64,000 bases of DNA from Macrotis lagotis. Taxonomy: Eukaryota > Chordata > Mammalia > Peramelemorphia > Peramelidae. The stretch covers positions 102,267,937-102,331,936 of the forward strand of contig NC_133665.1 in the NCBI RefSeq assembly GCF_037893015.1, read 5' to 3'. A program made the translations under genes and the position numbers. Position 1 is the first letter of the stretch; every line of letters starts with the position of its first letter. The notes under the pieces were generated by a model. It saw only the letters and a program-made list of their open reading frames with translations, did not search any database and was not told the DNA's origin. Positions 22,816-59,286 of this stretch are shown in pieces.

Positions 22816-23034
22816 ATGGGGGCGGGGGAGGAGGTGCGCGCGCAGCCAGGCAGAAACGGACGCCCGACGGGATGGGATGGGAACGGGAGAACGAGTGCGC
22901 GCGCATCCCCGGAAGTGAGAGGGCGGGGCCTCGCGTTCCCTCTGCCACGACTTCCGAGAGTCTCCTCCGTAGAGGAGCGGGCGCTGCAGGCACCGGCACC
23001 AAGTCGGAGCCGGGAGCGAGATGGTGGCCAATAG
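22816..23034 (+). other. potential upstream ORF overlapping the MEIOC-like start
   Basis: An ATG at 22816 opens a 72-codon frame (+2 relative to the main frame) that ends at 23034, 14 bases past the main ATG. If transcription starts upstream of 22816, this frame could dampen translation. Chance openness in GC-rich DNA is the alternative. Confidence 0.3.

Positions 23035-59286: not shown

Follow-up and report, generated by a model that had tools for sequence, protein, structure and literature searches.

What is the MEIOC-like gene that lies between IBA57 and OBSCN on C8 of the bilby, Macrotis lagotis: the ordinary MEIOC of this marsupial, a young or decaying copy of it, or an old second gene? 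MEIOC, the meiosis-specific coiled-coil domain protein, is the product of the gene called Gm1564 in mouse and C17orf104 in human. We analysed a window of 64,000 nucleotides (C8:102267937-102331936), together with its flanks and the rest of the genome, and refer to the gene in question (C8 102.291-102.332 Mb) as MEIOC-B, and to a second locus found on C2 as the C2 gene. From sequence comparisons we consider it likely that MEIOC-B is an intact, protein-coding MEIOC paralogue, most plausibly a copy dating from the early vertebrate genome duplications.

The features that make up MEIOC-B, in window positions, are:
22600..23399, plus strand: CpG island, likely promoter, surrounding coding exon 1
23021..23086, plus strand: coding exon 1, with the ATG, 22 residues; phase 0, shared with the C2 gene; donor GTGAGG
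45955..46118, plus strand: coding exon 2, with the WSVYGDDI block; AG/GT, ends in phase 2
53945..54049, plus strand: coding exon 3; AG/GT, phase 2
54255..56022, plus strand: coding exon 4, large and central, 589 residues; AG/GT, phase 0; its end is the start of the PF15189 domain
58862..58996, plus strand: coding exon 5, 45 residues, second part of PF15189
59109..59286, plus strand: coding exon 6, third part of PF15189; GC donor (AG/GCAAGT), ends in phase 1 like exon 7 of the C2 gene
64081-64292, starting 81 bases beyond the window: coding exon 7, the last, with the stop codon; completes the frame

Joined, the seven exons give a frame of 875 codons plus stop, with no internal stop and no frame break. 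The preliminary description of the window had reported an open MEIOC-like frame, the start (ATG at 23021) and end (59286) of which prove exact, and had counted seven exons, a number that holds for the gene as a whole; only six coding exons lie inside the window (23021-59286), and the seventh, with the stop codon, lies past its edge. The ATG of exon 1 has an in-frame stop upstream and stands inside the CpG island, where four 200-base steps have a GC content of 0.61-0.77 and a CpG observed/expected ratio of 0.82-1.07, as compared to a GC content of 0.32-0.49 in the five steps measured outside the island. The acceptors of the six introns are all AG, and the donors are GT in five cases and GC in one (after 59286). 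The large central exon contains 0 stops in 1767 bases, vs. at least 19 (mean 37) in each of 2000 base shuffles.

A Pfam search with the predicted protein returns one family, PF15189 (MEIOC), matched over the complete profile (1-166 of 166; residues 674-838 of 875) with 243.8 bits (cut-off 27; E = 9.4e-73). The individual exons carry successive parts of the profile: 1-33 in exon 4 (40.4 bits), 29-75 in exon 5 (71.9 bits) and 73-133 in exon 6 (52.3 bits). Exon-wise local alignment to MEIOC gives the same answer. In seven comparisons (exons 2 to 7, and exon 4 again without its last 28 residues, with exon 1 left out), the real score was reached by no shuffle in any of the seven (1000 shuffles for short exons, 200 for exon 4); the scores include 79 for exon 2 against exon 3 of the C2 gene and 58 for exon 3 against exon 4 of human MEIOC (0 of 1000 shuffles in each case), the human sequence having been used for the latter because the matching bilby MEIOC exon was not found. 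Exon 5 is identical to the C2 gene at 31 of 45 residues, exon 6 at 26 of 53 aligned residues, and exon 1 is probably the counterpart of the end of MEIOC exon 2, a homology suggested by phase and order. The predicted protein also has the architecture of MEIOC: a long N-terminal part, a C-terminal domain and the MEIOC exon plan. We conclude that, as judged by sequence, MEIOC-B is a member of the MEIOC family. Searches of more distant material gave nothing further: against solved structures the domain had one chance-level match (E = 0.56) and the big exon none, and scans of prokaryote genomes and viral contigs for relatives gave 67 and 36 pattern matches, respectively, none of them confirmed.

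Is MEIOC-B then MEIOC itself? To this end the preliminary description had proposed looking for a second locus beside GJC1, and one is present. We searched the genome (3.66 Gb, 607 contigs) in two ways, in each case scoring the best candidates only. A six-frame search with PF15189 gave 8 matches among 12 candidates, falling at two loci with four exon pieces each, MEIOC-B on C8 and C2:196194027-196198130; the big exon, used as query against the whole genome, matched 2 of 10 candidates, MEIOC-B and the C2 gene, and no third locus appeared among those candidates. Read from its big exon onward, the C2 protein matches PF15189 with 288.3 bits. The C2 gene is 88.9% identical (795/894) to an unverified version of the human MEIOC sequence, with which separate pieces of C2 align at 81-98%. 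With this identity and its position near a GJC1-type connexin, the C2 gene fits ordinary MEIOC. MEIOC-B, by comparison, is 33.4% identical to it overall (257/770): 65.1% in the domain (108/166) and 24.7% elsewhere (149/604). The 'roughly 60%' that had been given for the best block against human MEIOC is thus close in size to what we measure, 65%, in the domain and against bilby MEIOC. The window gene as the sole MEIOC is ruled out by the second locus; on these comparisons it is a paralogue of MEIOC, not the orthologue of human and mouse MEIOC.

Exon 4 of C2 MEIOC was not found; a run of 92 N lies in the intron where it is expected, before the big exon (C2:196191217-196191308). Automatic annotation of bilby MEIOC may miss exon 4 at this N run.

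The intron phases of MEIOC-B are 0, 2, 2, 0, 0 and 1, and each is the same in the C2 gene, where two of the boundaries can be seen from a single side. Because the introns and their phases are preserved, we reject a retrocopy as the origin of MEIOC-B. The donor at window position 59287 belongs to a rare class (GC); the corresponding C2 intron starts with GT. An assembly artefact, in which MEIOC-B would be an allele or a misplaced duplicate of MEIOC, is scarcely credible: we found nothing in its favour, protein identity of 33% together with near-saturated synonymous sites excludes an allele, and the IBA57 and OBSCN frames share one scaffold with MEIOC-B, within a 144-kb stretch free of N.

The question then becomes when the two genes parted, and position is one line of evidence here. 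Human IBA57 sits by GJC2 and near WNT3A and WNT9A on 1q42, and human MEIOC sits near GJC1, WNT3 and WNT9B on 17q21. In bilby the order on C8 is a WNT9A-type gene (101.62-101.64 Mb), a WNT3A-type gene (101.82-101.88 Mb), a GJC2-type connexin (102.220 Mb), IBA57, MEIOC-B and OBSCN; the order on C2 is MEIOC (modelled exons 196.184-196.198 Mb), an open reading frame that we take to be CCDC43, a GJC1-type connexin (196.369 Mb), a WNT9B-type gene (197.54 Mb) and a WNT3-type gene (197.74-197.75 Mb). The WNT and GJC names are those we take these genes to bear; positions and pairing are measured. WNT3/WNT3A and WNT9B/WNT9A are reciprocal best pairs among 15 WNT last exons compared (of 57 WNT matches), and the GJC1-type and GJC2-type connexins are mutual best by global alignment among 18 connexins compared, of 22 matches (174/248 identical, score 912). 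Three duplicated neighbour pairs therefore mark the two loci as sister regions, the pattern expected of a copy from the early vertebrate genome duplications (2R). The preliminary description had pointed to exactly this pattern and had read the gene as an ohnologue of MEIOC, and the results bear it out: a second copy exists, and the window lies outside the GJC1 region, the GJC1-type connexin being on C2 and the GJC2-type near MEIOC-B on C8 (FZD2 was not looked for).

The flanks of MEIOC-B agree with this placement. The upstream neighbour had been named as IBA57, and its last exon supports the name:
5690..6109 (open-frame bounds, not splice bounds), plus strand: IBA57 last exon; PF25455 (CAF17 C-terminal domain), 69.5 bits
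The IBA57 frame also matches solved CAF17 (IBA57) chains in the PDB with E down to 2e-62. Next downstream of MEIOC-B is an immunoglobulin-domain frame, from window position 102,677, that we take to be OBSCN from its first domain and its position; the first immunoglobulin domain matches solved obscurin with 168 bits, and in a two-domain query Roundabout-2 (246 bits) and titin (215 bits) chains outscore obscurin.

A younger duplicate, in which MEIOC was copied after the marsupial-placental split (or in early amniotes) and evolved fast, with the IBA57 locale reflecting chance or a segmental copy, would account for the strong divergence outside the domain (149 of 604 residues identical). Position argues against it. 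MEIOC-B lies 70 kb downstream of the GJC2-type connexin, whose closest compared relative lies 170 kb from MEIOC, and by our own arithmetic the odds of landing by chance within 70 kb either side of the GJC2-type gene in 3.66 Gb are ~4 in 100,000. The kept introns and phases likewise speak against it, in so far as a retrocopy is concerned.

Synonymous divergence provides a second line of evidence. The proportion of synonymous differences (pS, by Nei-Gojobori counts) between MEIOC-B and the C2 gene is 0.814 over the 166 codons of the domain, 0.798 over the 259 codons of the best BLAST stretch and 0.774 over 707 codons. For the neighbour pairs, the corresponding values are 0.754 (178 codons, without the WNT3A last exon) and 0.764 (last exon, 160 codons) for WNT3/WNT3A, 0.649 (341 codons) and 0.667 (157 codons) for WNT9B/WNT9A, and 0.788 (99 codons) and 0.798 (248 codons) for GJC1/GJC2. 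Synonymous differences between the two MEIOC genes, at 0.77-0.81, are thus at least as high as in the neighbour pairs, at 0.65-0.80, as a 2R duplicate requires, this being a necessary and not a sufficient sign of such an origin. On these counts, synonymous saturation excludes a recent copy, and a younger duplicate of MEIOC appears improbable. Saturation alone does not separate 2R from other very old duplications; the sister-region position does. Taking origin and reading frame together, we hold it very likely that MEIOC-B is both a 2R-type copy and intact. The early vertebrate genome duplications would have left MEIOC-B in the GJC2/WNT3A/WNT9A region, and ordinary MEIOC would have remained in the GJC1/WNT3/WNT9B region.

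Several observations weigh against an ancient, intact MEIOC-B. The saturation seen here would also be reached by other duplicates that predate, roughly, the split of marsupials from placentals, and at fourfold sites identity between MEIOC-B and the C2 gene is slightly above the expectation from base use both in the domain (18/43, 0.42 vs. 0.30) and overall (28/81, 0.35 vs. 0.31). The neighbour pairs are likewise above expectation (0.34-0.41 vs. 0.25-0.33). The next-best connexin pairing is not far behind the GJC1/GJC2-type pair (score 757 vs. 912), and when BLAST retains a single hit for each pair, other connexins rank ahead for the C2 connexin and the GJC pair is not mutual best. The duplication is judged from one genome, which leaves more room for a younger copy; the gene model is a prediction from genomic sequence; and exon 1 is only weakly similar to MEIOC (DCY is common to both). 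In provisional helix 3 of the domain, only 15 of 32 residues are identical to the C2 gene. Published surveys point the same way: the zebrafish authors report that they sought a paralogue and found one PF15189 gene (PMC12289311), and Soh et al. describe PF15189 as occurring about once per genome in metazoans (PMC5397071). With a single copy in zebrafish, which a younger duplicate would explain directly, and about one per metazoan genome, MEIOC-B would need to have been lost in several lines. A fuller history, in which two MEIOC genes were present at the start of the vertebrates, and placentals and teleosts lost the second of them while marsupials kept it for ~450 million years as a working YTHDC2 adaptor or germ-granule factor with N-terminal partners of its own, is a tentative proposal, to which we give somewhat less than an even chance.

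Could MEIOC-B instead be an unexpressed relic, a MEIOC copy that is losing its function and is open by chance? The unusual GC donor, the weak similarity of exon 1 and the genomic basis of the gene model would suit a relic. Against it stand 875 codons without a stop or frame break, splice sites that are all of a usable class, the CpG island at the start, and a domain that is 65% kept despite near-saturated synonymous sites, a combination that indicates selection on the domain. A very recent loss would still be compatible with an intact frame, and a relic strikes us as very improbable. C2 MEIOC also has a CpG island, directly upstream of its first modelled exon. Counts of E2F (two forms), MGA/MAX, STRA8-MEIOSIN and A-MYB motifs in the two islands gave nothing convincing; the best of the 10 counts was 5 A-MYB-like sites in the C8 island, and 19 of 500 model sequences had at least as many. 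A testis transcriptome is described along with the bilby genome (PMC11239497).

If MEIOC-B is an intact paralogue, what would its product do? In mouse, the coiled-coil domain of MEIOC is reported to bind YTHDC2, and deletion of helix 2 or of the C-terminus to abolish binding (PMC4729902); a destabilising effect of MEIOC and YTHDC2 on target mRNAs, including those of mitotic-cycle genes, has been suggested by Soh et al. (PMC5397071). We split the domain by eye into four provisional helices and found 34/40, 23/31, 15/32 and 24/34 residues identical to the C2 gene in helices 1 to 4, such that helices 1, 2 and 4 are best kept (85, 74 and 71%). From this we infer that the YTHDC2 docking surface may be kept and that the partners of the N-terminal part may have changed. 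The C-terminal four-helix domain of MEIOC-B would dock on the RNA helicase YTHDC2 as that of MEIOC does, the strongly changed N-terminal part (~670 residues) would recruit other partners or targets, and the control of mitotic mRNAs through YTHDC2 would be divided between MEIOC and MEIOC-B by germ-cell stage or by sex. We put the chance that the product serves germ cells as a second YTHDC2 adaptor at about even.

The alternative is an intact paralogue that uses a partner other than YTHDC2, a role compatible with an ohnologue origin and in line with the largely new sequence outside the domain. Zebrafish Meioc also binds Piwil1, in spermatogonia, and at one stage is reported to act independently of Ythdc2 (PMC12289311), and a YTHDC2-free role is for this reason a serious rival. 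The conservation of provisional helices 1, 2 and 4 argues against it, as does the pull-down result that binding to Ythdc2 is retained by the zebrafish protein (PMC12289311); we regard it as somewhat unlikely.

How does MEIOC-B compare with known systems? The GJC1/GJC2, WNT3/WNT3A and WNT9B/WNT9A pairs resemble MEIOC/MEIOC-B in occupying the same two regions and in having similar synonymous saturation; these three pairs have all been retained in human, whereas we know of no human MEIOC-B. MEIOC-B shares with MEIOC a full PF15189 near the C-terminus, the large central exon, the intron phases and the N-terminal WSxYGDD and ILEE blocks, and differs from it in its locus, in sequence (65% identical in the domain, ~25% elsewhere), in a first coding exon that is short and almost unrelated, in one GC-AG intron, and in having 7 coding exons found vs. 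8 putative exons described in mouse (PMC4729902). Bam of schizophoran flies, a diverged MEIOC homologue the C-terminus of which binds Bgcn, a paralogue of YTHDC2, has been left open in its description as either a duplicate or a diverged orthologue (PMC5832417). Bam is far more diverged than MEIOC-B and is without the N-terminal extension, and in bilby, unlike the case of Bam, both MEIOC copies occupy one genome. Among the papers listed by literature searches we found no description of a second vertebrate MEIOC gene, and other marsupials may have a gene annotated automatically as 'MEIOC-like' in databases; Sarcophilus is one of the species covered by Abby et al., whose main text does not use the term 'paralog' (PMC4729902).

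If a mammal does hold an ancient, intact second copy, the make-up of the YTHDC2-MEIOC switch differs among mammals. In bilby, meiosis may involve a partner protein that we have not found described in other vertebrates, and, if so, the mitosis-to-meiosis switch in marsupials would use two MEIOC-type proteins. As a natural experiment, MEIOC-B would then help to show which part of MEIOC determines the choice of partner and target, and would bear on the transfer of mouse results to marsupials.

Other features of the two regions are minor. An open frame at window positions 62895-63560 (221 codons, rich in GC), the start of which recurs downstream at window position 73419, is probably an interspersed repeat and not a gene, and lies beside LINE-1 ORF1-like sequence (61683-62335, minus strand). 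Pieces at 238-717, 50246-50881, 57450-57857 and 58499-58807 (minus strand) are presumably LINE-1 ORF2-like, and near 60530-60860 there are copies that we take to be like the tRNA-type short interspersed elements of marsupials. On C2, scattered open frames at 196228108-196234650 resemble, by eye only, pieces of endogenous retrovirus. Elsewhere on C8, two connexin genes at 50171166-50171822 (plus strand) and 50196043-50196696 (minus strand) lie ~25 kb apart in opposed orientation and encode proteins 97.7% identical; either an inverted duplication took place recently or the assembly holds one gene twice.
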